DNA of 64,000 bases, from contig JAACJG010000006.1 in the NCBI GenBank assembly GCA_009917695.1, forward strand, positions 248,001 to 312,000. Reading direction: 5' to 3'. Origin of the DNA: Candidatus Rifleibacterium amylolyticum (lineage in GTDB: Bacteria; Muiribacteriota; Ozemobacteria; Ozemobacterales; Ozemobacteraceae). Shown here piece by piece: positions 11,448 to 30,274 of this stretch. Position 1 is the stretch's first letter. Every line of letters starts with the position of its first letter. A program made the translations under genes and the position numbers. The notes below the pieces were generated by a model that saw nothing but the letters and a program-made list of their open reading frames with translations, was not told the origin of the DNA and did not search any database.

Positions 11448-11882
11448 TTAAACAGCGACGTTGAGCCTTGGGCGCGGCGGATTATTCACCTGCACTGAAT
11501 TTTGATGCTTCTGCATCGCCAGCTCCCAGGTATTGCGAAGATTCTGCACCAATGGTTTGATCTCAAGCATGGGCGCAGGATCTTTTCTGACATTGGCATC
11601 GCCAAGTTTTTCTAGAAAGAACACGTATAACCGCTCAAGGTTGTCAGCGATTTCTCCACCCTTTTCTTTGTCGAGTGCAGTCATCAGCTCTGCGAAAATA
11701 GCCTGAATACGCAAGAGTAGATTGCTTATCTGCTCGATATTCTGTTCTTCAAAGGCAACTTCAGCCTGACACATGAACTTGATGGCGCCATCATAGAGCA
11801 TGAGTATCAACGCCTCAGGCGAAGCTGTTTCGACCTGGGTTTTCTTGTAGGCAGTGTTTTTGCTGTATGGGTTGGTGTTCAT
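11448..11882 (-). CDS. fliS: Flagellin export chaperone FliS
   Basis: 144 aa. The N-terminus NPYSKNTAYKKTQVETASPE followed by LILMLYDGAIKFM is characteristic of FliS. In the family this cytoplasmic four-helix protein holds the flagellin C-terminal helix unfolded until export. The start overlaps the end of the maf gene by 4 bases. In systems with FliW and CsrA, FliS also competes for cytoplasmic flagellin and so takes part in the feedback, which is relevant because fliW and csrA are in this window. The last ~15 residues (NNPPRPRLNVAV) are a non-helical extension. Confidence 0.93.
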   Translation of the reverse strand: MNTNPYSKNTAYKKTQVETASPEALILMLYDGAIKFMCQAEVAFEEQNIEQISNLLLRIQAIFAELMTALDKEKGGEIADNLERLYVFFLEKLGDANVRKDPAPMLEIKPLVQNLRNTWELAMQKHQNSVQVNNPPRPRLNVAV

Positions 11883-14466: not shown

Positions 14467-17448
14467 CTACTTGTTTCCTGTCAGCTGTGCAAGCTGATTT
14501 GAAAATGCCGTCGCCTGTGACTGATAATTACTGAGAGCGCTTTCAAGAGTTGCGAACTGCTTGAGCAAAGCTTCTTCACGCGAAGCCAGGCGCTCTTCCT
14601 GTTTGGCGATCTGGCTGTTGATCAGCGATATCTGCTTATCCATCTCGCTGTTCGAACTGGCGACGCCAGAACGCCCAACCCGCTTGGTCAGCATACCGTC
14701 TGATCGGGTAAATTCATTGAGCACATCTTTAAGTCGGCGGGCTATGCCCCTTTTGTTGACGTCAGTCGCATCCTGGTTGAACAAGGCCGCAATCTTGTCG
14801 GGATTCGCCTTGAGCGCAGCTTCCAGATTTTCTTTGCTTGAAATAGTAAGTGTCCCGACCATGGTGTCTTTGTAGTTTGAGCCGACTGCACCCGTTGTGA
14901 TACCAATATCCGACAAACTGTCGAAGAAACTGTCGACACCAGGCACGACAGAAGACATCACCATGCGCATCTGCGATCTGACACTGCGCAAAGTACTGTC
15001 ACCAGAGAGCAACCCGACCTTGTAAGCCTCTTCATATGCAGCAAGCTCAGAATCCGACAAAGCGCTCTTCTCTTCGTCAGTAAGAGCACTTAGAGACCAG
15101 TTACGCTCTTCGGTCAACTTTCCGTATATCGTCTGGGTAATTTCATTGTAGGCATCAATAAAGTCAGTTATCGCCTGCATACCAACTTCGGTGTCAGCTT
15201 CGACATTGATTACGCTGCCGCTGGCACCGGTAACATCGTAGATATTAAAGCTCACGCCCTCGACAACGTCGCTGATGGTGTTCGACTGACTGACCTGATC
15301 GGCACCTCCAAACACCCCGTCTATGCTGTAGATAGCATTTTTACCGACATTCTGCGTTGCCCCCTGCAATCCCATTGCTGCAAGGAAATTGCTGCTGTCA
15401 GTTGGCGAGCCCAGCGCGATTGCGCGATTTCCGGTTTCAGTCGAGGTCAGTACAAATTTACCGTTAGTTTTGTCGTAATGTGCCTTTACCCCAACCTGGC
15501 TGTTATTGTTGATCGCACTGATAACCTGGTCGAGAGTCATGCTCGAAGTGCTGTTGATCATGAACTTCACGCCATTGATACTGAAACTGCCGGCCGTTAC
15601 AGCACTGGCAAAACCGGCACTGGCAAAAGGCGTAGCTGTCTTAACATCTGATATCGGCCGGGCACTGACAATACTTGAACCGGTATCGAGGCCGTTAACC
15701 GGGCCATTGGCCAGGCCAAGGGCACTGCCCAGCGTACCGGCGCCAAGATCTTTGATCTCAAGCGTTGCAGCCGTACCCTTATCAGTACCGGTTATGTTAA
15801 CTTTGCCGGTTGCTGCATCATAGTAAGCACTTGCAACACCTTCTACCTCTGCGATTCTGTCGATGATCTCACTTAAAGTTTCTGTTCCGTCATAACTGAT
15901 GTCAGTAGCCTGCCCGTTAACCAGAACCTGCAAAGTACCGGCGCCAACTCCGAATTCAGTTGCAATATCGCTGGTGCGTGCATCAGCCAGCGACAACCCG
16001 AGATTGCCCGAACTGGCCAGTTTGGCGGCGGCAGCCTGACTGCCTGCTACCAGACCGGTCGCGCTGAGAAAATTACTCGTGTCTGTTGAAGAACCCATAC
16101 CTATTGGAGCAGTGCTGCCATCTTTGCGGGTCAGAGTTATCAGGTCGGTAGCTGAATCATAAGTCGCGTTCAGATTGGTCATTGAAGTTATACGCGAAAG
16201 CACACCCTGCAGGGTGTCGATCGAAGGATTTACATTAATCTGAACGCCATCAACGGTAAAAGTTCCAGCAGTAATGCTCTGGGCAAAGGTTTCATTGGTA
16301 AGTTTTTCGCCATTATCAAGCCCGGAAACCTTCATCATTGCGCCAAAAAGTTTTTCGGTAAAGTTGGAAGTATTGTCGGTAACACTGAAAAAATTTCCGT
16401 CGGCCGAATCAGTGTTCACAATCTGAAGCTTACCACTGCCCTGGTCGAAGCGAAATTCTACCAGCCGATCATCCGGATTTCCGGTAGGAACACCGCCCTT
16501 CACAAGGCTCGCACGGGTATCTATATCCTCATTGAGAAATTTTATCAGATCAGCCACTTTGGTGCTGCCCGGCAGACCACTGATATCGAAAGATTCTGGC
16601 GAACCAGTTCCAGCGCGCTCGATGAAGAAAGACCCCGGAGTAATACCAAGATCGTCCAATGTAGTGTCAAGACCAGATCTTATATTCATCAGACCAGACT
16701 CGATGGCAGGTAGATCCTTGTCGAGATCTATTTGTCCATCGGCGTCGAACATTCCGCTTATGATCCCAGAAGGTGCGACATCGACAACTTCAACACTCAG
16801 ATTCGGGTCGAGCAGATTGAAGCGCACTCTGTTGTTGCGTGCATCATAGCTCGCATTGAGTTTGCCCTTGAGCTCTGGTTTATTGTTGATGCTGGTATTG
16901 ATGTTGTTTATCAACCCGTCGATTGTAGTATCGGCCGTAGCACCGGTCGCAATATTGTAAGTGCCTGAACCACCGCCAACAACACGCACCTCGAGGTTAC
17001 CCGGAGTAATGCCAAGCGCTCCGAGGGTCGTCGAAGAACCTCCCAGTTTGCTGGTACTTTTCAAATTGTAACCAAGTTCTAATGCTCCGGCCAGCTTGCC
17101 CTGCGATGCTACGGTAGTCGAAGTTGCCACCTGTTTAACATGCATGGTATAGCTGCCGATAGCAGCAGCAGTTGTTGCCGTCGCATTGACGACACGCGGG
17201 TCACTCGCGTCTACCTTCTTGGTATTGAAGGTGCGGCTGAAGGTAAGGTCAGTAGCCTTGTTCTGAAGCTCGAAAAGCTTGAGATTTATATCCTGAAGCA
17301 TGGTGCGCTGATAATCCATGGTGTTGCGCTTACGCTGCAGGTTGAATTTGGTAAAGCTCTCGGCTTTGAGCATCTGCTCAATCAAAGACTGGGTGTCGAG
17401 CCCTGAAGAGAGCCCGCCCACCCAGTTTCTATTTACACTGCTGACCAT
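14467..17448 (-). CDS. fliD: Flagellar filament cap / hook-associated protein 2, enlarged
   Basis: 993 aa, about twice the common FliD length of 450-600. The N-terminal GLSSGLDTQSLIEQMLKAE and the long C-terminal heptad region (QISLINSQIAKQEERLASRE) are the conserved D0/D1 parts of FliD. Between them lie several repeated modules of the Flagellin_IN type, each about 100-130 residues with motifs such as GITPGNLEVRV, DLGITPGSFFIE and FTVDGVQINVN. FliD forms the cap that folds exported flagellin into the growing filament. A strong GTCAGGAGG ribosome site precedes the ATG. The gene follows flaG and is read from the sigma-28-type promoter at 18178-18204. Confidence 0.92.
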   Translation of the reverse strand: MVSSVNRNWVGGLSSGLDTQSLIEQMLKAESFTKFNLQRKRNTMDYQRTMLQDINLKLFELQNKATDLTFSRTFNTKKVDASDPRVVNATATTAAAIGSYTMHVKQVATSTTVASQGKLAGALELGYNLKSTSKLGGSSTTLGALGITPGNLEVRVVGGGSGTYNIATGATADTTIDGLINNINTSINNKPELKGKLNASYDARNNRVRFNLLDPNLSVEVVDVAPSGIISGMFDADGQIDLDKDLPAIESGLMNIRSGLDTTLDDLGITPGSFFIERAGTGSPESFDISGLPGSTKVADLIKFLNEDIDTRASLVKGGVPTGNPDDRLVEFRFDQGSGKLQIVNTDSADGNFFSVTDNTSNFTEKLFGAMMKVSGLDNGEKLTNETFAQSITAGTFTVDGVQINVNPSIDTLQGVLSRITSMTNLNATYDSATDLITLTRKDGSTAPIGMGSSTDTSNFLSATGLVAGSQAAAAKLASSGNLGLSLADARTSDIATEFGVGAGTLQVLVNGQATDISYDGTETLSEIIDRIAEVEGVASAYYDAATGKVNITGTDKGTAATLEIKDLGAGTLGSALGLANGPVNGLDTGSSIVSARPISDVKTATPFASAGFASAVTAGSFSINGVKFMINSTSSMTLDQVISAINNNSQVGVKAHYDKTNGKFVLTSTETGNRAIALGSPTDSSNFLAAMGLQGATQNVGKNAIYSIDGVFGGADQVSQSNTISDVVEGVSFNIYDVTGASGSVINVEADTEVGMQAITDFIDAYNEITQTIYGKLTEERNWSLSALTDEEKSALSDSELAAYEEAYKVGLLSGDSTLRSVRSQMRMVMSSVVPGVDSFFDSLSDIGITTGAVGSNYKDTMVGTLTISSKENLEAALKANPDKIAALFNQDATDVNKRGIARRLKDVLNEFTRSDGMLTKRVGRSGVASSNSEMDKQISLINSQIAKQEERLASREEALLKQFATLESALSNYQSQATAFSNQLAQLTGNK

Positions 17449-17491: not shown

Positions 17492-17854
17492 CTATGCTTT
17501 TTTATCGAAAATCAGACCCATGTAATCTTCCATCTTGGCAACGAGATCGAGAACTTCTTCGTTCGGAATCTGGCGGATAACCTTGTCCTTGGTAATATCC
17601 ACCACCGACACCATCGTTCTATGCGTAGCATCATGAATCTGAAAGCGCAGCGATTTGTCGAAAATCACTGCTGTCTTATTAAGTTTATCGACAGCTTCCT
17701 GAAGTTCTTCCTGTGTTTTCTCGCGATTTTCCTTGGGTGATTCGAGCTGCTTGCTATCAAGCTCCGCCACTTTACCTGCTTCTCCACTTCTATCGACGCT
17801 ACCCTGGGTGGACTGAGTCGGATCCAGGACTGGTCTTATGTTACCGATTTCCAT
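17492..17854 (-). CDS. flaG: FlaG family protein
   Basis: 120 aa. The C-terminal half carries the FlaG pattern: LRFQIHDATHRTMVSVVDI, then VIRQIPNEEVLDLVAKM. FlaG proteins influence filament length and are usually next to fliD. The N-terminal half is charged and probably disordered. A strong AAGGAGGATG ribosome site lies in the 15-base gap after the 71-codon gene, with which it is co-transcribed. Confidence 0.88.
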   Translation of the reverse strand: MEIGNIRPVLDPTQSTQGSVDRSGEAGKVAELDSKQLESPKENREKTQEELQEAVDKLNKTAVIFDKSLRFQIHDATHRTMVSVVDITKDKVIRQIPNEEVLDLVAKMEDYMGLIFDKKA

Positions 17855-17869
17855 TTCAGCATCCTCCTT

Positions 17870-18085
17870 TCATAAACTCAGTAATTCGTTGAAATATTCG
17901 AACGGCCGAAATGTCTGTAGAGCAAGACATTCGGCCAGATTTCCAGAATTGAAGTCAGAAACTGGCCTGACAAATGATATAAAATGGCCGCCCCGATCAC
18001 TGGTCGGAAAATGCGACCGGCCGGCTGGCGATTCGCCATACCGCTGCCCCGAAGCCAGATTGCTGAGCACAAAAGCTTTCTGCAT
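17870..18085 (-). CDS. Small protein with a flagellin-type leader (unknown)
   Basis: 71 aa starting MQKAFVLSNLASGQRYGE and ending FEYFNELLSL. I chose this ATG over the longer open frame (to 18187) because AAGGAGG sits 7 bases upstream, in the loop of a hairpin whose 16 bases are identical to those at the flagellin 1 start. It is the first gene of the flaG-fliD-maf-fliS operon, 15 bases before flaG. It has no signal peptide or transmembrane segment; the middle is Gly/Ser/Arg/His-rich. I do not recognise a family. It could be a regulated small flagellar protein or a leader peptide whose translation sets expression of the operon. Confidence 0.62.
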   Translation of the reverse strand: MQKAFVLSNLASGQRYGESPAGRSHFPTSDRGGHFISFVRPVSDFNSGNLAECLALQTFRPFEYFNELLSL

Positions 18086-18087
18086 CA

Positions 18088-18103
18088 GATTCCTCCTTGA
18101 ATC
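18088..18103 (-). promoter_or_regulatory. Shine-Dalgarno hairpin, candidate CsrA site (71-codon gene)
   Basis: Minus-strand GATTC-AAGGAG-GAATC: a 5-bp stem with the ribosome binding site as the loop. The loop contains A-N-GGA, the CsrA recognition core. The 16 bases are identical to those at 20563-20578. Confidence 0.65.
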
Positions 18104-18110
18104 CATAAAG

Positions 18111-18130
18111 CATTTGCATCCTTGCAAATG
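18111..18130 (-). promoter_or_regulatory. Upstream GGA hairpin, candidate second CsrA site
   Basis: An 8-bp perfect stem (CATTTGCA / TGCAAATG) with loop AGGA on the minus strand, 7 bases upstream of the ribosome-site hairpin. The core CAAGGATG fits the known high-affinity CsrA consensus (ACARGGAUG) well. Confidence 0.6.
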
Positions 18131-18177
18131 TAAATCCCTAAACCAAAAACACACAGTTTCCCCATATCCTATTATAT

Positions 18178-18204
18178 TTATCGACATAATTTACCTGACG
18201 ATTA
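18178..18204 (-). promoter_or_regulatory. Sigma-28-type promoter of the flaG-fliD-fliS operon
   Basis: On the minus strand TAAT (18204-18201), 15 bases, GTCGATAA (18185-18178). This is one base off at each box from the flagellar sigma-28 consensus (TAAA, GCCGATAA). It lies in the gap after flagellin 1, about 93 bases before the 71-codon gene. Confidence 0.68.
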
Positions 18205-18294
18205 CCGGGCTATTCCAGAAATTATGGCTAAATATCACAATCAAAAGCCGATTTCATTTGATAATGACAATATTTAGCCTATTTTCTTTAAATA

Positions 18295-20559
18295 TCACCT
18301 CAAAAGACTCAGCACTCCGGCGGCATTAGTATTCGCCTGAGCGAGCATTGCATTGGCCGACTGACTGACAACCTGATTACGGGTAAATTCTATCATTTCC
18401 AATGCAATGTCTGCATCTCTTATTCGTGATTCTGATGCCGAACTGTTGACATGCATATTGCGCAGATTGGTTATCGCATGTTCGAGACGGTTTTGAAAGG
18501 CACCCAGCTTTGAGCGTTCGGCTGAGACAAGATCAATTGCCTTGTTAAGTTTTCCTATAGCCAGTTCAGCCCCTTCGACTGTCGTCATATCAAGATTATC
18601 AATGCCAAGAGCCTTAGCTGACATTTCAGAAAAAGAAACCTTCATCACTTCCATCTGATTCGCACCAATATGGTACTGATTTTCGTTCTGCTGCACATGC
18701 ATGGTAAAGTTGCTGTCGCCAACCCCGCTTTTCGTTCCGGCACTCATGCCGAAGTACCGCAGCATGGTTTCGGCAGCGGTTGCCGTTGCATTCAACGCTG
18801 TTACCGTAACGGCTTTGATTGACACCATACTGGAGTAGGCCGTGCCGGCAGCTACGTTATCGCGCCCGATACGCGTTGAAGTGAACATTATCGAACCTTC
18901 GACCTGATCTACCCGTACATTTACACCGGCATCAGCAAAGTCCTGGTTAGCCTTATTCCTGAATTCTTCAAAACTGATCATATCGGCAGTAGTTACCACA
19001 CCTGGATCAGCTGAAATCGACTGACAAAGGTTAACCAGGATTGAATTCTGACCGTCGCCTACTTCGAGAACAGCAGCAGTGCTGACTTCTATACCAGGCT
19101 GATACTGACTGAAACCCCAGGCCATCTTGTCAGTGTCTTTTACACTTTCGACAAATCCACTGTACAAACCATCCTGAAAACCCAGAACCGAAGATGGTCC
19201 GGCATAAGAAATTTTGATACTGTTACCAAAGGCATAAGAAACCGATACCGGCCGCTGATATGCCAGCCTGATTTCGCCATTTACCACCTGCGCAGACAGT
19301 CCTGGCAGAGAACCGGCGGCCGTCGACCTGATCTGCTCGTTTAAACTGCGCGCAATACCCTCGAGAGTGCTGTAACCACTGGCTACTGCCAGCCCGATCA
19401 ACTGCCCCCCCGCTTCTACCATAAAGCTCTCAGCCGCTGAAAAGTAGAGACCCTGAACAAGTCCGCGACTACCGGCAATCTGGGCTGCCTGCGAATCGAA
19501 CTGTACATCGATGCCGCTGAGCAGACCTGAGGCTCGATCACAGTCAATCTGCGTAACTCTCGTCTGCTTGTCCTTGTCGGTAAGCTGCACTTCGACGAGA
19601 TTGTCTTTGGCCGCGCGCGCTGTCGATATGCCAAGCGCAGTCATCAGACTTTCGTCGCCCGCCATACTCACGCAGCCCTTTTCCCCTATGTAACCTGAAG
19701 TGATCTCCAGATAACCGCCAAGCCCGGTAAGCATTGTCTGTGAAGTTACCACGACGTTCACCACCGAATTATCGATCCCAAGGCCGTCCTTTTTGCTGAG
19801 CATGGCACTCTGCAACCGCGATGCGAATTCATCGAGGCTGGTATAGGCATCGATCACCACTTCGGCCGAGCGCGCATTGCCGTGCAAAGTTATTGTCTGT
19901 GGCTCTTCGAGCACAAAGACACCATTGGCGTCGTAGAATTGCGCAATGCTTTGCAGCATGGTATCGCCCTGCGCCAGATGGTTGCTGTCGCGCAGAGAAA
20001 AGAGATGCGTAGTCTGCAGCTGCGCCGAGCCCGCCTGCAAAAGCGCCAGACTGACCTGGTAATCGCCGCCCTCCGGCACATTACCAGTTACCAGACCGCG
20101 CGCATAGGCAGAGCTTGTGCTTACAGCCGCGTTTTGACTGCCATCGAGCAGCTTTTTGGTATTGAATTCTGTGTTGAAAGCAATACGGTTGATGTCGTCA
20201 CGCAGCTGTACGACCTCCTTCTGAATTTCAAGGCGGTCACGGCTGGTGAGCGTATCATTCGAAGCCTGAATGGCAAGCTCACGCATGCGGTGCAGGATAC
20301 TGTGAGTCTCGTTGAGAGCACCTTCGGCCGACTGAATCATCGAGATTCCGTCCTGGGCGTTCATGGTAGCACGGGCGAGGCCGCGCACCTGGCGCCGCAG
20401 TTTTTCACTTATCGTCAACCCCGCTGCGTCATCGGCAGCACGATTGATCCTCAAGCCAGAACTCAGTTTTTCAACTGATTTTTCGAGTCTGTTCGAAACT
20501 CCCAGCATCTGATGGTAAGAAGTTACCGCCGGGATATTATGATTTACTCTTAATGACAT
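18295..20559 (-). CDS. Flagellin 1
   Basis: 754 aa from the ATG at 20559 (MSLRVNHNIPAV), which has AAGGAGG in the loop of a small hairpin; an upstream in-frame ATG at 20613 is not supported. The N-terminal D0/D1 ([20 protein letters not shown]) and C-terminal D1/D0 ([20 protein letters not shown], ending GVLSLLR) are clearly flagellin. The middle ~480 residues form a large variable insert, so the protein is much longer than typical flagellins. It is a structural subunit of the filament, exported through the flagellar secretion system and probably glycosylated by Maf. It is paralogous to flagellin 2 directly upstream, with which it shares leader architecture. Confidence 0.94.
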   Translation of the reverse strand: MSLRVNHNIPAVTSYHQMLGVSNRLEKSVEKLSSGLRINRAADDAAGLTISEKLRRQVRGLARATMNAQDGISMIQSAEGALNETHSILHRMRELAIQASNDTLTSRDRLEIQKEVVQLRDDINRIAFNTEFNTKKLLDGSQNAAVSTSSAYARGLVTGNVPEGGDYQVSLALLQAGSAQLQTTHLFSLRDSNHLAQGDTMLQSIAQFYDANGVFVLEEPQTITLHGNARSAEVVIDAYTSLDEFASRLQSAMLSKKDGLGIDNSVVNVVVTSQTMLTGLGGYLEITSGYIGEKGCVSMAGDESLMTALGISTARAAKDNLVEVQLTDKDKQTRVTQIDCDRASGLLSGIDVQFDSQAAQIAGSRGLVQGLYFSAAESFMVEAGGQLIGLAVASGYSTLEGIARSLNEQIRSTAAGSLPGLSAQVVNGEIRLAYQRPVSVSYAFGNSIKISYAGPSSVLGFQDGLYSGFVESVKDTDKMAWGFSQYQPGIEVSTAAVLEVGDGQNSILVNLCQSISADPGVVTTADMISFEEFRNKANQDFADAGVNVRVDQVEGSIMFTSTRIGRDNVAAGTAYSSMVSIKAVTVTALNATATAAETMLRYFGMSAGTKSGVGDSNFTMHVQQNENQYHIGANQMEVMKVSFSEMSAKALGIDNLDMTTVEGAELAIGKLNKAIDLVSAERSKLGAFQNRLEHAITNLRNMHVNSSASESRIRDADIALEMIEFTRNQVVSQSANAMLAQANTNAAGVLSLLR

Positions 20560-20562
20560 GCT

Positions 20563-20578
20563 GATTCCTCCTTGAATC
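20563..20578 (-). promoter_or_regulatory. Shine-Dalgarno hairpin, candidate CsrA site (flagellin 1)
   Basis: GATTC-AAGGAG-GAATC on the minus strand, 3 bases before the ATG. The loop holds the ribosome site and an A-N-GGA core. Identical to the element before the 71-codon gene. Confidence 0.65.
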
Positions 20579-20586
20579 ATGGTAAT

Positions 20587-20604
20587 TCGCGCGTCCCTGC
20601 GCGA
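20587..20604 (-). promoter_or_regulatory. Upstream GGA hairpin, candidate second CsrA site (flagellin 1)
   Basis: Minus strand TCGCGC-AGGGAC-GCGCGA: a 6-bp GC-rich stem with AGGGA (A-N-GGA) in the loop, 8 bases upstream of the ribosome-site hairpin. Confidence 0.55.
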
Positions 20605-20703
20605 CTGGCTCACAGTTAGCCTGCGATTAAGTTGTCAGAAAACGAATCAGCAATCACCTCCATAATTTTCAGGCAGAAATTGATAATTTTTCTGCCGCAA
20701 TAA

Positions 20704-20730
20704 TTAACGGCATCTTTTGTTTTATTTTTA
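20704..20730 (-). promoter_or_regulatory. Sigma-28-type promoter of flagellin 1
   Basis: TAAA (20730-20727), 15 bases, GCCGTTAA (20711-20704) on the minus strand. The -35 is perfect and the -10 differs from consensus at one base. It begins 10 bases after the terminator of flagellin 2. Confidence 0.7.
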
Positions 20731-20740
20731 GCTAATGCGC

Positions 20741-20770
20741 AAAAAACCGCCGGAACATCTGGCGGTTTTT
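20741..20770 (-). terminator. Rho-independent terminator of flagellin 2
   Basis: Stem AAAAACCGCC / GGCGGTTTTT with a 9-base loop, ending in T residues on the minus strand. It is the third of three consecutive hairpins after the flagellin 2 stop. Confidence 0.85.
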
Positions 20771-20776
20771 CGCAAC

Positions 20777-20833
20777 GGCTGATTAAAATCAGCCGGAGGT
20801 TTCATGGCTGCCGGCCCCAGGCCGGTCAGCCAT
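20777..20833 (-). repeat. Two inverted repeats in the flagellin 2 3' region
   Basis: 20804-20833 is an almost perfect inverted repeat with arms ATGGCTG-CCGGCC and GGCCGG-(T)-CAGCCAT around a 3-base loop. 20777-20794 is a perfect GGCTGATT / AATCAGCC repeat. Neither has a T tract, so they probably protect the mRNA 3' end rather than terminate. Confidence 0.7.
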
Positions 20834-20845
20834 AAAACAGTCAGT

Positions 20846-23074
20846 TTATCTGAGCAGCTGCAAGACTCCCTGCGGAACCATATTGGCCTGAGCCAGCATG
20901 GCAGTGCCCGACTGAGAAATGATCTGGTTTCTGGTGAATTCAATCATTTCCATGGCGATATCAGCATCTCTGATTCTGGATTCAGAAGATACCAGGTTGC
21001 TGTGCGTGTTGCGCAGATTGTTGATGGCGAACTCGAGTCGGTTCTGGAAAGCACCCATCTTGGAGCGTTCGGCCGACACTTTGTCGATAGCCTTGTTGAT
21101 CTTTGCCACAGCGCTCTGAGCATTCTTGACGGTGCTGAGATCAATATTGGCAACGCCGAGTGCCTTAGACGACATATTACTGAAAGCCACATTCATACTC
21201 TGGCCCTGATCGGCGCCAATCTGGAACTGCGGCGACGAATCGACAACGAACATCTTGAAGTTCGAATCGCCCGACCCCTTTGCCGTTCCTTCGCTTACAC
21301 CCAGCTTGTTCAGGAAAACATCGTCACTCACATTCGTGCCCACCAGGGCAAGAGTTACCATGCTGCTCAATGCAGCAATATTATTCTGGTTAAGTTTGCC
21401 GACTAGAGTAGAAGTGAATGCAAGTGCTGAACCAACCTGATCCAGCCTCACATTTACCGTGTTAGTATCTATTTCAGCATGAACAAGCCGCTGGAACTCG
21501 ACGAATGAAGTCATATCGGCTGCCGTAACCGTAGTTACAATAGTCATTACAACTGTTGCCACAGTTACGCCATCACCAACCTGGAACGCCATCGTAGCAG
21601 CGGCGGCGGCGGTAGCAACATACATGCTCATGCCCCATTCGACATAGCTGGTGTCTTTGCGGGCATCGACGAAACCACTGTAAGTGCCCTCAACCAGACC
21701 GATACGAGCAGCATGTGCCGCGACACCACTTATATTGATCGTGCTGGCAATAGTTATCGAAGCGGTTGCAGGCTTATCATAGCTGATTCTAATTTCACCC
21801 TCGACAACTGAGGCTTCAAGACCTACGACATTGGCGGTAGCAATTTCATCGTTGATCTGGCGGGCAAGTGCTTCCATACTCCACAGCCCGATACCGATTT
21901 CGACTGTAACCGTCAGGCTTCCTGCGCTGATGATGAACTGCGAAGCGGCAGCGGTAATTCGCAAACCCTGTTCGAGACCTTGGGTTCCCGCTATCTGAGC
22001 CGCCTGCGATGTGAATTCCAAGTCTACGCCGTTGAGCAGAGATGATGCGGTCGCTCCTTCGACGTTCACGGTGCGAACATTTCCGAAGCCATCACGAAGC
22101 TCTACAGCCACACGATTTTCTACCGCTTCCCGGCTGATATTCAGCCCCATGGAATCGAGAACCTTCTGGTCGGCAGAAAACGACACGCTGCCTGCTTCAC
22201 CGATGCTGCCAGAGATGACCTGTAGATAGCCGCCCAGGCCGGCAACCTGGCTCTGAACAGTATTAACTGTAGCAACCCGCGAATTCTGTATATCGAGTCC
22301 ACTTTTGCTGACCATGGCGTTCTGAAGAGCCGCCGCCAGGTTGTCAAGCGTCATCTGACCATCAATGTTAACACTGGCAGTTTTACCGTTTCCGGTAAGT
22401 GTTACTGCCTGCGGCGTTGAAAGAACGAATACGCCATTAGCATCGTAGAACTGGGCAATACTCTGAAGCTGCGTACCGCCATCCGCCAGTCCGGTCGCAT
22501 CTTTGAGCGAAAAGATCTGCGAACGCTGCATTTCAGCAATACCACCGCGCAGCAGTTCGAGTGACACATCATAGCTGCCACCTGCGCCGCTGGCACTGCC
22601 ATTAACCAGACCCGACACCGAATTTGAACTGGCGCTGATCAAAGCACTCTGACTGCCATCGAGCAGCTTTTTCGTATTGAACTCGGTGTTTTTCGCGATG
22701 CGGTCGAGATCGAGCCTGAGCTGATTCACCTCTTTCTGAATCTCGAGACGGTCATTGCTGGTAAGAGTATCGTTAGATGCCTGAATCGCCAGTTCACGCA
22801 TTCTCTGCAATATGCTGTGCGACTCACCCAGCGCTCCTTCAGCGGTTTGCACCATCGAAATGCCATCCTGAGCGTTGAGCACAGCTCGACTCAGGCCACG
22901 AATCTGACGGCGCATTTTTTCGCTGATTGCAAGGCCGGCGGCATCATCAGCAGCGCTGTTGATACGCAGACCCGAACTAAGCTTCTGAATCGACTTTTCC
23001 AGTCGCGCAGAAGTCTGACTTATAGCACCATAGGTGCTGATTGAAAGCACATTCTGATTGATTTTGAGACTCAT
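20846..23074 (-). CDS. Flagellin 2
   Basis: 742 aa from the ATG at 23074 ([14 protein letters not shown]), chosen because ATGGAGG lies directly before it. The N-terminal [20 protein letters not shown] and C-terminal [20 protein letters not shown] (ending GVLQLLR) are the conserved flagellin D0/D1 coiled coils. A long middle insert contains alanine-rich stretches. Similarity to flagellin 1 is high at both ends and moderate in the insert, so the two arose by duplication. It has its own sigma-28-type promoter (23272-23299), a leader of about 190 bases with several GGA motifs, and three hairpins after its stop. It forms the filament with flagellins 1 and 3. Confidence 0.94.
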
Positions 23075-23077
23075 AAT

Positions 23078-23093
23078 GATTCCTCCATGAATC
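23078..23093 (-). promoter_or_regulatory. Shine-Dalgarno hairpin, candidate CsrA site (flagellin 2)
   Basis: Minus strand GATTC-ATGGAG-GAATC, 3 bases before the ATG. Same stem as in flagellin 1 and the 71-codon gene, with one loop base changed that keeps the A-N-GGA core. Confidence 0.65.
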
Positions 23094-23105
23094 AAAGTTT
23101 AAATT

Positions 23106-23118
23106 GTGCATCCTGCAC
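23106..23118 (-). promoter_or_regulatory. Upstream GGA hairpin (flagellin 2)
   Basis: Minus strand GTGC-AGGAT-GCAC, which can pair up to GTGCA/TGCAC with GGA as the loop, 12 bases upstream of the ribosome-site hairpin. The sequence CAGGATG resembles the CsrA consensus, but the loop is tight. Confidence 0.5.
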
Positions 23119-23271
23119 TTAGGAAACCGTTAACTAAATGGTCAGGCATGTCCCCCTTCCGTGTCTTGTGCTGAACTCCTTAAATTTCAGGCCCTATCTT
23201 TCGTTCTTAAAAATCTTTAGCCTCCTTTCTCTTTATTTTCGACAAGGCACACTTTTGCCTATCTATTAGGA

Positions 23272-26730: not shown

Positions 26731-29343
26731 TTATCTGAGGAGATCGAGAACAGCCTGGGCGGAGACGTTGGCCTGACCGACCATGGCGTTGCTGGCCTGC
26801 TGCAGAATCTGCGACGAGGTCATTTCGATAACTTCGGCGGCCATATCGACGTCTCTGATACGTGATTCAGAGGCTGTCATGTTCTGCAATGCTACACTCA
26901 AGCTGTTGAGAGTGTAGTTCATGCGGTTTTCGATGGCACCCAGTTTGGCGCGTTCAGAAGATATGCGCTGCAGGGCTTTATCGATAAGACCTATTGCTAT
27001 TTCAGACGATTTGACCGTAGTCAGATCGAGGTCTTCTATACCAAGCGCCTTACAGTCAGTGCGTATGATATTCGACACCGCCGTATGACCCTGATTCGGC
27101 CCAATCTGGAACTGAATCTGAGTATCCTTGACATGCATCGTATAGGCATAGTTGCCACTGCCGTTCTGATATGCCACCGGATCGACATCAAATATAGATT
27201 TAAGTGTGTTCGTAGAATCGGGACTGCCGAGTTCGGCGAATACTATGCGCCCATCTCTGCCTGGAATCGTCGAAAACATTCTGATGGTCTGAGTTGCCGT
27301 CAAAATTTCGGCGTTAACCTTAACCCCCTGCAAACTGGCCTGAGCATTGATCTGGTTGGCAATTTCCGTGATAGACCGGAATGAAGTGCCGGCAGAACCA
27401 GCCGGGAAGGCAATCGACATGCCATTACCATCAAGGTCGGCAATATAGAACGACAGATTATCGACACCGCCAGTAGCTGTGTGGTCAAAAACGACATAAC
27501 CAAATCGAGCCGAGGGCTGATCATAAGCGAAATTCTGCACAGCTGAATTGCCGTCGAAACCGCTTATCGTAGTTTGCTGATGCACCTTTAAACCTGCTGC
27601 AATGCCGAGAGCACCACCGCCTGTATCAAAGATGTCAAAGTTCGATTCAACACCTGTTTCAAGTGATCTGAAGGCAAGCACGCCATTTTTGGCTTCTGCG
27701 GTTACGAGAAGGCCATTTGCACCGATCTGGAGATTGATAGCCTCAACCAGCGAATTCAGGCCACCAGCAGTGTAATTACCCGTAAGTCGGATTATTGTAG
27801 AACTGCCCAAAACGTCATGTCTGTCTGCGATTGAGAACTCAATGGAAGTTCCAGCCTGAGAAAAGTCGAAAGCATCGATAATATCGTAACCAGTTGCAAC
27901 ACCTGGATTGCCACCAGTGCCAGTATATCGGCCGTTGGAAACCCCCAGAGGATTGGTAGTTGCATTGGTAATGGAAACGTATGCTGCCGAACCGGTATTC
28001 AAAGTAGTGAATTCGAGAGCATATTGATCGTTGACTCTTACAGTTACCATACTGCTTGCAGCACGCAGTTCTGTGTTAATGATCGAAGCGACCTGCTGCA
28101 TACTGTAAACACCAGAGCCAATATTAATCGGCACTGTTAGAGTAGACGAAACCGAGTCGTCGATATCAAAAGTAATAGCGCTGGGAATTGAGATGCCCAG
28201 AACCGCAGCCTTGGTAACGGCATTGGCCGACTGAGGCGGTTCAAACATCAGATCGATGCCTTCGATGAGACCCATGGCGCGATGACCGGCAATCTGCGTG
28301 GTAAGAGTATTGCGCTCGCCAAACGGAACACCGAGATTGGTGACGGCGATAGAATAAACCGGATCTTCGGCAGGAATTACAGCCTGGAATCCAAGCGCTT
28401 TAACCAGCGATTCTTCGCCGGTGAAATTGATGCGGCCAAGTTCGCCGTTGCGACCTGAAATAACAGTGATCTGACCGTTGTCGTCACCGCTGTCGCTGAT
28501 GAAAGCCTGAGAACCTTCGAAATCGAGGCCTTTGCCAAGCTGGTCAAGGGTCATCGCCGCCTGAATTCTTTCGGTCAACTGACCAAGAGTAAGGTCTTTG
28601 CTGACGACGATTTCGCCCTGGCTGTTATCGCCCTGGAGAAAAAGAGTCTGGGGCAGGTCAAGAATAAAATGATTGTTCTTGTCGTAGAAATTGGCAAGTG
28701 AAGCAAGGGTTGTCGAAGAAGTTGCAATCTCGCCGTCAGTAGTCACGAAAATAGCTGAGCGCTGATGTTCGGGAGTTCCTGAATAGGTTTTATAGCCGAT
28801 ACCGGGAATGTATTCCGATTTCGGCCAGACTACGACTGAAAAGTCAGAAAAGGTAAGAACTTCGCCGACAACTACGCCGTCAAGATTCTTCGGGTCGCTG
28901 CTGGAAATTACAGCGGTGCCCGAGCCATCAAGCAGTTTTCTGGTATTGAATTCAGTACCGTAAGAAATTCTGTTGATGTCTTCTTTGAGCTGGGCGATTT
29001 CTTTCTGAATCTCAAGACGGTCGGTAGTGGTAAGAGTGTCATTGCCCGACTGCAGAGCCAGTTCACGCATACGCTGCAGCATGCTGTGAATCTCATTGAG
29101 AGCTCCTTCTGCCGTCTGAATGAGACTGATTCCGTCCTGAACATTCATTCTGGCCCGGGTGATACCACGCACCTGCGTGCGCAGCTTCTCAGAGATGGTC
29201 AGACCGGCGGCGTCATCAGACGCGCGGTTGATTCTCAAGCCTGAGGACAGTCGCTCGATTGAACTCGACAACCTGTTGTCATTCTTAACCAGGTTACTGT
29301 GAGCGTTTAGAGCCGTTACATTTGAATTAATACGCAGGGCCAT
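26731..29343 (-). CDS. Flagellin 3
   Basis: 870 aa, the longest of the three flagellins. The N-terminus (MALRINSNVTALNAHSNL, then SGLRINRASDDAAGLT) and the C-terminus (ESRIRDVDMAAEVIEMTSSQ, ending AVLDLLR) are the conserved coiled-coil ends. The middle ~590 residues are a large insert with Flagellin_IN-like modules. It diverges more from flagellins 1 and 2 than they do from each other. The leader has ATGGAGG as ribosome site but lacks the GATTC/GAATC hairpin of the other two, so its translation may be controlled differently. It ends in a good terminator. I see only a weak sigma-28-like sequence upstream (TCCGATGA, 29428-29421). Confidence 0.94.
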   Translation of the reverse strand: MALRINSNVTALNAHSNLVKNDNRLSSSIERLSSGLRINRASDDAAGLTISEKLRTQVRGITRARMNVQDGISLIQTAEGALNEIHSMLQRMRELALQSGNDTLTTTDRLEIQKEIAQLKEDINRISYGTEFNTRKLLDGSGTAVISSSDPKNLDGVVVGEVLTFSDFSVVVWPKSEYIPGIGYKTYSGTPEHQRSAIFVTTDGEIATSSTTLASLANFYDKNNHFILDLPQTLFLQGDNSQGEIVVSKDLTLGQLTERIQAAMTLDQLGKGLDFEGSQAFISDSGDDNGQITVISGRNGELGRINFTGEESLVKALGFQAVIPAEDPVYSIAVTNLGVPFGERNTLTTQIAGHRAMGLIEGIDLMFEPPQSANAVTKAAVLGISIPSAITFDIDDSVSSTLTVPINIGSGVYSMQQVASIINTELRAASSMVTVRVNDQYALEFTTLNTGSAAYVSITNATTNPLGVSNGRYTGTGGNPGVATGYDIIDAFDFSQAGTSIEFSIADRHDVLGSSTIIRLTGNYTAGGLNSLVEAINLQIGANGLLVTAEAKNGVLAFRSLETGVESNFDIFDTGGGALGIAAGLKVHQQTTISGFDGNSAVQNFAYDQPSARFGYVVFDHTATGGVDNLSFYIADLDGNGMSIAFPAGSAGTSFRSITEIANQINAQASLQGVKVNAEILTATQTIRMFSTIPGRDGRIVFAELGSPDSTNTLKSIFDVDPVAYQNGSGNYAYTMHVKDTQIQFQIGPNQGHTAVSNIIRTDCKALGIEDLDLTTVKSSEIAIGLIDKALQRISSERAKLGAIENRMNYTLNSLSVALQNMTASESRIRDVDMAAEVIEMTSSQILQQASNAMVGQANVSAQAVLDLLR

Positions 29344-29507
29344 AGGTTTGCCTCCATGACTGTTGGGGGGTTCAATCCGTTTTTAGCTTCGAAGCTTATT
29401 TTTTTCCCCATCTACATTATTCATCGGAAACTGAAGTCAACAAACATTAACCTTGTTTCCGACAATCAAAGCCATTTTTCTTCCTTATTCTCCGTTTTTC
29501 TCGCATT

Positions 29508-29774
29508 TTATTGCTTTTTTGCTTTATTATCTTTTTTTCCGAAATTTTTAAGAATATCCTGAGGCAGGCTCTTGAGCGGATCAAGAGACGTAATCTTAGC
29601 GGCTTCGCGATTTTCCTTCTGGATTTCTTCGTAAACTTCCCAGCGATGCACCTTAACGCTTCGAGGTGCATTGATACCAATTTTCACCTGATCCTTACCG
29701 ATATCAACCAGAACGATCTCAACGTCATCGCCGATGATGATCTTTTCGTTTATTTTTCTTGTCAGTACAAGCAT
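29508..29774 (-). CDS. csrA: Translational regulator CsrA
   Basis: 88 aa. The N-terminal [20 protein letters not shown] and the following [19 protein letters not shown] are the CsrA RNA-binding fold, including the conserved Leu4/Arg6 and Arg44 regions. The protein is 15-25 residues longer than common CsrA because of a Lys-rich C-terminal tail. It binds GGA motifs in mRNA leaders and blocks ribosome access. The start overlaps the fliW stop by one base (TGATG). In organisms with FliW, the main CsrA target is flagellin mRNA, which fits the hairpins seen in the flagellin leaders here. C-terminal extensions are known in FliW-antagonised CsrA proteins. Confidence 0.95.
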
Positions 29775-30274
29775 CAGCTCTCGTCCTCCCCTTTGGGATC
29801 AGACTCGAGAGACTCCTGGACTTCCTTGAGCTTGGCGGCGCGTTTTTCCATTTCATCGAGAATGCGAGCCTTGACTGAATGTCTGGCATTGCTTGAAATG
29901 ATCTGGCGGCCTTTGCGATTGGCAGCGTTGATAACCAGCGGTCCCTGCAGGTTGGCTGTCATATCGCTGGGATTGGCCGGAATCGTTACTATCACGTAGA
30001 GAACCGCATCTTCTGCGCGTTCAAGACTGATAAAACCAGCATCTGCATCTGAGATTTCAATGTCATACTCGAACATGAAGCTCAGAGGCTCAATGATTAC
30101 AAATGCCAGATTTCCGTCATCTACGCATTGCAACCAGCGGAAAGGACTTCCATCATCAGCATTGAGAATGACATACTGGTGGTAATCCCCAAAGCCAAGC
30201 AGGCCCTCTTCAAAGGTGATGATCTCATCTTTGCAAATTTCAATTTTTCCGAATCTGGAGGTCGAAATCTTCAT
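29774..30274 (-). CDS. fliW: Flagellar assembly factor FliW (CsrA antagonist)
   Basis: 166 aa, slightly longer than usual. Family motifs are clear: [20 protein letters not shown] near the N-terminus, FVIIEPLSF in the middle, and [20 protein letters not shown], followed by a helical tail. FliW binds either CsrA or unexported flagellin. When flagellin is secreted, freed FliW sequesters CsrA and flagellin translation resumes. The gene sits 19 bases after flgL and overlaps csrA by one base, forming the end of an flgK-flgL-fliW-csrA operon. Confidence 0.95.

Follow-up and report, generated by a model that had tools for sequence, protein, structure and literature searches.

Covarying twin GGA-loop hairpins in flagellin and flaG leaders of Candidatus Riflebacteria are probable CsrA repression sites

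We analyzed a 64,000-nucleotide stretch (the window) of the Candidatus Rifleibacterium amylolyticum assembly GCA_009917695.1 (5.39 Mb, 35 contigs; contig JAACJG010000006.1), which carries a cluster of flagellar genes. All features described here lie on its minus strand, where the order is fliW, csrA, flagellin 3 (fla3), flagellin 1 (fla1), flagellin 2 (fla2), a 71-codon open reading frame (ORF), flaG, fliD and fliS, with other genes interspersed. Three leaders in this cluster, those of fla1, fla2 and the 71-codon ORF, contain a pair of hairpins with GGA in the loops; this twin element, a candidate site for CsrA, is our subject. An earlier note, made from the letters of the window, had described these hairpins, and both sequence reading and a scan of the window found them at exactly the positions it gave (Table 1). 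It had also placed csrA and fliW in the same cluster, which proved correct: the proteins matched Pfam CsrA and Pfam FliW, the genes overlap, and a solved entry that holds both CsrA and FliW (5dmb) gave the nearest chain for each. The overlap is as in Bacillus subtilis, where fliW lies upstream of and overlaps csrA, whose translation is coupled to that of fliW (PMC6529632).

The window scan called for two perfect stems, each with 5 or more Watson-Crick pairs enclosing GGA in a loop of 3–8 nucleotides (nt), no more than 30 nt apart. The plus strand had 0 such twin pairs; the minus strand had 3, exactly the leaders of fla1, fla2 and the 71-codon ORF. In first-order shuffles the averages were 0.2 and 0.35 twin pairs per strand, and the highest counts were 3 and 4 (20 shuffles each). 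Each window leader has two A-N-GGA (or AGGA) loop motifs, one of which overlaps the Shine-Dalgarno sequence (the proximal hairpin; the one upstream is distal). The distance from GGA to GGA is 22 nt for fla2, 24 nt for fla1 and 22 nt for the 71-codon ORF. Over 71 leaders its median was 23 nt, and it was at least 18 nt in 69 of the 71. Rfam gave 0 matches in the window at gathering score, with 6 weak sub-gathering matches in 17800–23200.

The evidence for the element comes chiefly from comparison. We kept 140 flagellin starts from relatives (Candidatus Riflebacteria), namely matches beginning within the first 6 query residues, and these gave 125 distinct leaders, 92 from the same family and 33 from elsewhere in the phylum (leader L122 of genome G030 was counted twice, from starts 3 nt apart). 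Among the 73 family leaders not of fla3 type, at least 4 Watson-Crick pairs were formed by the proximal stem in 49 and by the distal stem in 51, while control GGA sites at the same loci reached 4 pairs in 6.0% of 5716 cases, the leaders themselves counted in. Because picking the best stem would bias such a count, we also used, blind to pairing, whichever ANGGA came first upstream of the Shine-Dalgarno sequence, with a fixed 6-nt loop. The inner three distal pairs were formed in 75 of 90 rows picked in this way versus 255 of 3147 control ANGGA sites (8.1%). The result was similar for distinct rows (66/79), without the doubled L122 row (75/89), within the family (56/67) and outside it (19/23). 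The 75 paired rows use 24 different inner distal stems.

Covariation was scored on a leader alignment. The alignment step kept 71 of 81 leaders (10 misses, and L108_2967 in a shifted register), and 57 of the 71 that were distinct, with a 6-nt distal loop, a spacer of 4–14 and at least 3 distal pairs, made up alignment A1. In A1, double changes that preserve pairing were seen at all six distal pairs and at 3 of 5 proximal pairs. Its covariation score, for rows preselected for at least 3 distal pairs, was 0.459, versus 0.147 in shuffles (0 of 500 as high) and no more than 0.087 when the partners were slid. The distal hairpin of window fla1 is itself outside both A1 and the 90-row count, although its equivalents in relatives covary. 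Within the family the proximal stem is mostly GATTC/GAATC, so that much of it hardly varies; elsewhere it has been rebuilt, as CTGC-AAGGAG-GCAG, AATTC-AAGGAG-GAATT or, in other families, ATC-AAGGAG-GAT. As judged from these alignments, compensatory change is strong for the distal stem and modest for the proximal stem. The earlier note had looked to relatives for covariation; it is present and strong, and for the distal stem it survives ANGGA-only picking.

The near-constancy of the proximal GATTC/GAATC stem within the family could suggest inverted repeats that arose by chance in a single ancestral flagellin leader and were passed on through gene duplication. The covariation contradicts this explanation, which we regard as practically negligible: distal stems are wholly different between paralogues yet remain paired, and the proximal stem too has been replaced. 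The same facts, with the 24 inner stems, bear out the suggestion of the earlier note that structure is under selection, and the alignments indicate that selection has kept the shape of the twin hairpins.

Table 1. Positions of the twin hairpins and of the surrounding flagellar features in the window.
Feature	Coordinates	Strand	Evidence or remark
fla1 distal hairpin GTGC-AGGAT-GCAC (alternatively five pairs around GGA)	23106..23118	-	5-nt loop; relatives' equivalents covary
fla1 proximal hairpin TGATTC-ATGGAG-GAATCA, loop is the Shine-Dalgarno	23077..23094	-	sequence, window scan, relatives
flagellin 1 (fla1), proposed target gene, ATG 23074	20846..23074	-	
fla2 distal hairpin TCGCGC-AGGGAC-GCGCGA	20587..20604	-	sequence, window scan, leader alignment
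fla2 proximal hairpin TGATTC-AAGGAG-GAATCA, loop is the Shine-Dalgarno	20562..20579	-	sequence, window scan, leader alignment
flagellin 2 (fla2), proposed target gene, ATG 20559	18295..20559	-	
flaG-leader distal hairpin CATTTGC-AAGGAT-GCAAATG	18111..18130	-	sequence, window scan, covariance model
flaG-leader proximal hairpin GATTC-AAGGAG-GAATC	18088..18103	-	sequence, window scan, covariance model
71-codon leader ORF, ATG 18085; stop touches flaG Shine-Dalgarno (TGAAAGGAGG)	17870..18085	-	
hairpin in leader ORF, GGTCGC..GCGGCC, conserved	17986..18018	-	alignment columns 123-155; zero double changes
second hairpin in leader ORF	17905..17935	-	columns 207-237; double changes at 3 pairs among four relatives
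flaG, proposed coupled target	17492..17854	-	Pfam FlaG
fliD, downstream of flaG	14467..17448	-	Pfam FliD_N and FliD_C
fliS, farther downstream, same strand	11448..11882	-	Pfam FliS
csrA, proposed repressor	29508..29774	-	Pfam CsrA; nearest solved chain 5dmb_D
fliW, proposed antagonist; stop overlaps csrA start (TGATG)	29774..30274	-	Pfam FliW; nearest solved chain 5dmb_A
flagellin 3 (fla3), ATG 29343, adjoins csrA, without twin hairpins	26731..29343	-	

The arrangement itself is already known from flaA of Campylobacter jejuni and hag of Bacillus. The loops have the form of the ANGGAN hexaloops of the proven CsrA sites in C. jejuni flaA, where the GGA spacing is 21 nt (PMC4894983), and B. subtilis hag is described as having two CsrA sites, one overlapping the Shine-Dalgarno sequence, with antagonism by FliW (PMC7652899, PMC6529632). 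By this analogy, the twin elements are very probably CsrA repression sites relieved by FliW. Each would be a docking platform with two sites for one CsrA dimer, with one subunit on the distal ANGGAN loop and the other on the proximal loop, which is the Shine-Dalgarno sequence. Bound CsrA would exclude the ribosome and repress fla1, fla2 and the flaG leader ORF, and FliW, encoded by the overlapping upstream gene, would keep CsrA off these messages. Flagellin building up in the cytoplasm would then bind FliW, and the CsrA freed would stop flagellin synthesis; we infer this feedback from B. subtilis, and in Bacillus such partner switching among flagellin, FliW and CsrA is described (PMC7652899).

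The two systems also differ from ours. In C. jejuni the case concerns the major flagellin flaA, while here many relatives have several flagellins per genome, plus flaG, with separately evolving copies; the Shine-Dalgarno sequence here sits in a stem of 5–6 pairs, unlike that of flaA; and binding, predicted here, is proven in C. jejuni (PMC4894983). For Bacillus a single hag flagellin gene is described (PMC7652899, PMC6529632), and here the third flagellin appears to be exempt, as set out below.

Among relatives, the occurrence of csrA tracks that of flagellin. CsrA and FliW matches were found in the identical 31 of 39 phylum genomes, and csrA was present in 30 of 33 genomes with Flagellin_N versus 1 of 6 without (Fisher p = 0.0005, a guide only, as the genomes are related; the Flagellin_N matches may include hook-associated proteins). 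Separately, three genomes of family f5 (G027, G032 and G034) have two or three FliW matches each; G027 has three, of which two are partial.

Several observations weigh against CsrA control. Three genomes with flagellins gave no csrA match, and although two of them (G001 and G016) are incomplete, G030 is 92% complete. G030 has five Flagellin_N matches and neither csrA nor fliW, and nevertheless keeps one leader (L265) with a perfect six-pair distal hexaloop hairpin; its other leaders have weak distal stems (L122, L147) or no ANGGA (L148). It may be that csrA is simply missing from the G030 assembly. The strict stem fell below 4 Watson-Crick pairs proximally in 24 and distally in 22 of the 73 non-fla3 family leaders, with G-U pairs rescuing some. 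In the blind count, 15 of 90 rows failed to form the inner three distal pairs, and a further 16 of 106 leader rows were omitted for want of GGAGG or an upstream ANGGA; window fla1 is among these 16 because its loop AGGA has no extra base. For the proximal stem within the family, pairs 4-11 and 2-13 did no better than column shuffles or stayed within their reach, and pair 1-14 exceeded the shuffle maximum by just 2. The folding energies of single leaders were not significantly beyond those of shuffles (z −1.33, −0.17 and −1.39). In the minimum-energy fold of the fla1 leader, GAUUCAUGG is paired to UUAUGAGUC across the start codon in place of GAUUC/GAAUC, and for the leader of the 71-codon ORF a 71-nt fragment favours a different fold while a 63-nt fragment makes both hairpins. 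With ordinary energies and a competing fold in fla1, the case rests on comparison and not on energy.

Some of these points would also suit a simpler explanation, in which the proximal hairpin merely sequesters the Shine-Dalgarno sequence, independently of protein or in response to temperature, and the distal hairpin is an unrelated stabilizer of the 5′ end. The stem around the Shine-Dalgarno sequence could by itself be plain sequestration, since it buries the ribosome site; in fla1 the minimum-energy fold covers even the start codon; and G030 keeps a good twin leader without a csrA match. We nevertheless consider this explanation quite improbable. Although the distal hairpin lies clear of the ribosome site, A-N-GGA is kept in its loop across the 24 versions of the inner stem (A-N-GGA being the selection rule in the 90-row count, this constancy is better judged from the collected flagellin leaders), and both loops have the form of the CsrA hexaloop and are spaced as in proven sites.

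The third flagellin departs from this pattern. The twin hairpins were not found in the fla3 leader of the window, and among the 92 family leaders, 19 are of flagellin 3 type, as assigned by the leader motif ATGGAGGC and not by protein; in none of these 19 did a strict stem, distal or proximal, reach 4 pairs. Of the flagellins in the cluster, fla1 and fla2 carry the element described in the earlier note, whereas the third flagellin, beside csrA, falls outside the scheme. The best reading of these leaders is that fla3 escapes the proposed control by CsrA. As a separate observation made by eye, fla3 leaders (window 29340–29420, and relatives in alignment A3) often have a GGGG-type run facing a CCCC-type run about 25–35 nt on, before a ATGGAGGCA Shine-Dalgarno. 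Elsewhere in the window, upstream of flagellin 1, minus-strand positions 23160–23219 resemble by eye a flagellin leader of G001 and G002 (TTTTTAAGAAC..GGGCCTGAAATTTAAGGAGTTC..GCACAAG) from which the distal GGA loop has gone; the stretch is apparently what remains of a flagellin gene since lost.

The remaining leader with a twin element precedes the 71-codon ORF and, through it, flaG. Reading by eye the 18 genomes with flaG in the fetched loci, we found the succession of twin element, short ORF and flaG in 9 and not in the other 9. The nine ORFs are 71, 69, 76, 65, 72, 62, 65, 33 and 29 codons long. Between the window and three relatives in its genus, differences by codon position in the ORF were 22/23/25 (G000 to G001), 24/28/26 and 34/37/35, versus 8/9/50, 10/8/52 and 22/15/43 for flaG. 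Such even differences indicate that the leader peptide is not what is kept, and the ORF gave no Pfam match at E 0.1. The "71-codon gene" of the earlier note does not therefore stand as a conserved protein gene; judged by its codon positions, it is a variable leader ORF before flaG, without sign of selection on a protein. That it might still encode a real small flagellar protein under CsrA control is suggested by the open frame of 29–76 codons that follows the twin element before flaG in all 9 genomes having such a leader, and by the earlier closure of other frames in five of them (G001, G002, G005, G009 and G012). We think this improbable, given the codon positions and the Pfam result; moreover, the peptides of other genera look unrelated by eye, and in the window another frame is open for 68 codons.

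Because the leader ORF ends at the flaG Shine-Dalgarno sequence, CsrA may act on flaG indirectly, in that CsrA would repress the ORF and flaG, perhaps with fliD and fliS, would follow by translational coupling. A precedent is E. coli iraD: the target of CsrA there is a short upstream ORF that ends at the start signals of the next gene, and with repression of this ORF iraD follows by such coupling (PMC5574718). The arrangement here is like it in that the main gene is preceded by a short ORF whose Shine-Dalgarno sequence is covered by a CsrA-type site; it differs in gene and phylum and in that the ORF carries a twin element of flagellin type. By this analogy flaG is possibly coupled to translation of the leader ORF. 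In the window, 15 nt separate the end of the ORF from the flaG start; elsewhere, in the other 8 genomes, the end ranges from 48 nt upstream of flaG to 11 nt within it. The predicted access to the flaG site when the leader ORF melts rose strongly in G000 and G012 and modestly in G002, G003 and G005, and fell in G001, G009, G018 and G021. The whole flaG leader folded no better than shuffles (z −1.62, −0.85 and −0.28), and double changes occurred at 6 of its 49 predicted pairs among four sequences. Locally, both hairpins within the ORF (Table 1) are conserved in these four. We also considered and rejected an anti-Shine-Dalgarno pairing between leader ORF and flaG, which inspection by eye had suggested (GCATTTTCC/GGAGGATGC in the window): over 9 genomes the duplex was not clearly above that of shuffled ORFs, which did as well in 67 of 200 cases for the window, 22 of 200 for G018 and 19 of 200 for G021. 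In the schemes for the flagellins and flaG, CsrA binding, repression, FliW antagonism and coupling are inferences from what the sequences show, namely the hairpins, their covariation and the presence of csrA and fliW.

A covariance model built from A1 was used to follow the element beyond these leaders, with up to 150 candidates scored per genome. In the 5.39 Mb genome of the window, among the 150 of 1250 candidates scored, there were three matches at E 0.05, all inside the window; thus, at the sensitivity of one model search, the element is restricted in this genome to flagellin and flaG leaders. Across relatives the model found at least 74 matches in 18 of 23 genomes. By our reading of their positions, 63 of the 74 matches listed precede a flagellin, a flagellin fragment or a flaG leader ORF, 1 is at the end of a contig and 10 fall outside this pattern. 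Seven of the ten are units before flagellins with a short ORF or none (two each in G003 and G012, one each in G004, G011 and G031). A strong twin element in G009 (L131 1167–2569; G009:C26:28166-28210 and the next ORF), with E 1.4e-7, precedes a 451-amino-acid ORF directly upstream of a flagellin, for which we found no convincing Pfam family. Two borderline matches precede non-flagellin ORFs: one of E 0.024 before 325 amino acids (L262 1553–1602; G010:C7:140052-140101) and one of E 0.048 before 370 amino acids, with a perfect TACTC-AAGGAG-GAGTA stem (L263 1692–1728; G002:C43:61191-61227). Both are perhaps chance.

Extra twin units with non-conserved ORFs of 16–67 codons lie upstream of flagellin leaders in G012, G019, G003, G004 and G011 (L108 5797–6080, L114 4491–4535, L094 4354–4645, L096 8111–8149 and L106 3366–3404). 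With multiple strong sites in a genome, part of them on short non-conserved ORFs such as these, the twin hairpins might serve mainly as decoys that titrate CsrA, as the C. jejuni flaA leader is described as doing (PMC4894983). We find this unlikely as their main role. In the leaders read, the proximal loop is the Shine-Dalgarno sequence of an ORF, which argues for translational control first, and of 9 flagellins of one leader type that were inspected, only 1 had extra units in its upstream 520 nt, so that these units may be leftovers of lost genes.

Outside Riflebacteria (in Synergistota, Deferribacterota, Bacilli and others), flagellins at 30 of 60 loci were preceded by a distal ANGGA hairpin, versus 58 of 864 controls (6.7%) downstream at the same loci (4 or more pairs, taking the best of three registers and counting G-U pairs; L197, from Riflebacteria, and L200 omitted). 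The arrangement is therefore probably widespread, and may be old and general.

In the literature searched, no paper joined CsrA with Riflebacteria, and a search for a covariance model of CsrA flagellin leaders returned only the C. jejuni paper. What is new here is the strong structural evidence in Riflebacteria, the exempt flagellin 3 and the leader ORF of flaG. A bolder and rather doubtful extension is that the twin CsrA element is a portable cassette in the phylum: before short ORFs whose peptide is irrelevant, translation gated by CsrA and FliW would open the flaG-fliD-fliS operon as an RNA switch, and copies standing alone in front of flagellins would be CsrA decoys. The comparative evidence would extend the CsrA-FliW flagellin checkpoint to an uncultured group distant from both Bacillus and Campylobacter; it also supplies an alignment and a covariance model where Rfam gave no match. 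A single genome here provides a natural set of flagellin paralogues, some with the site and some lacking it.

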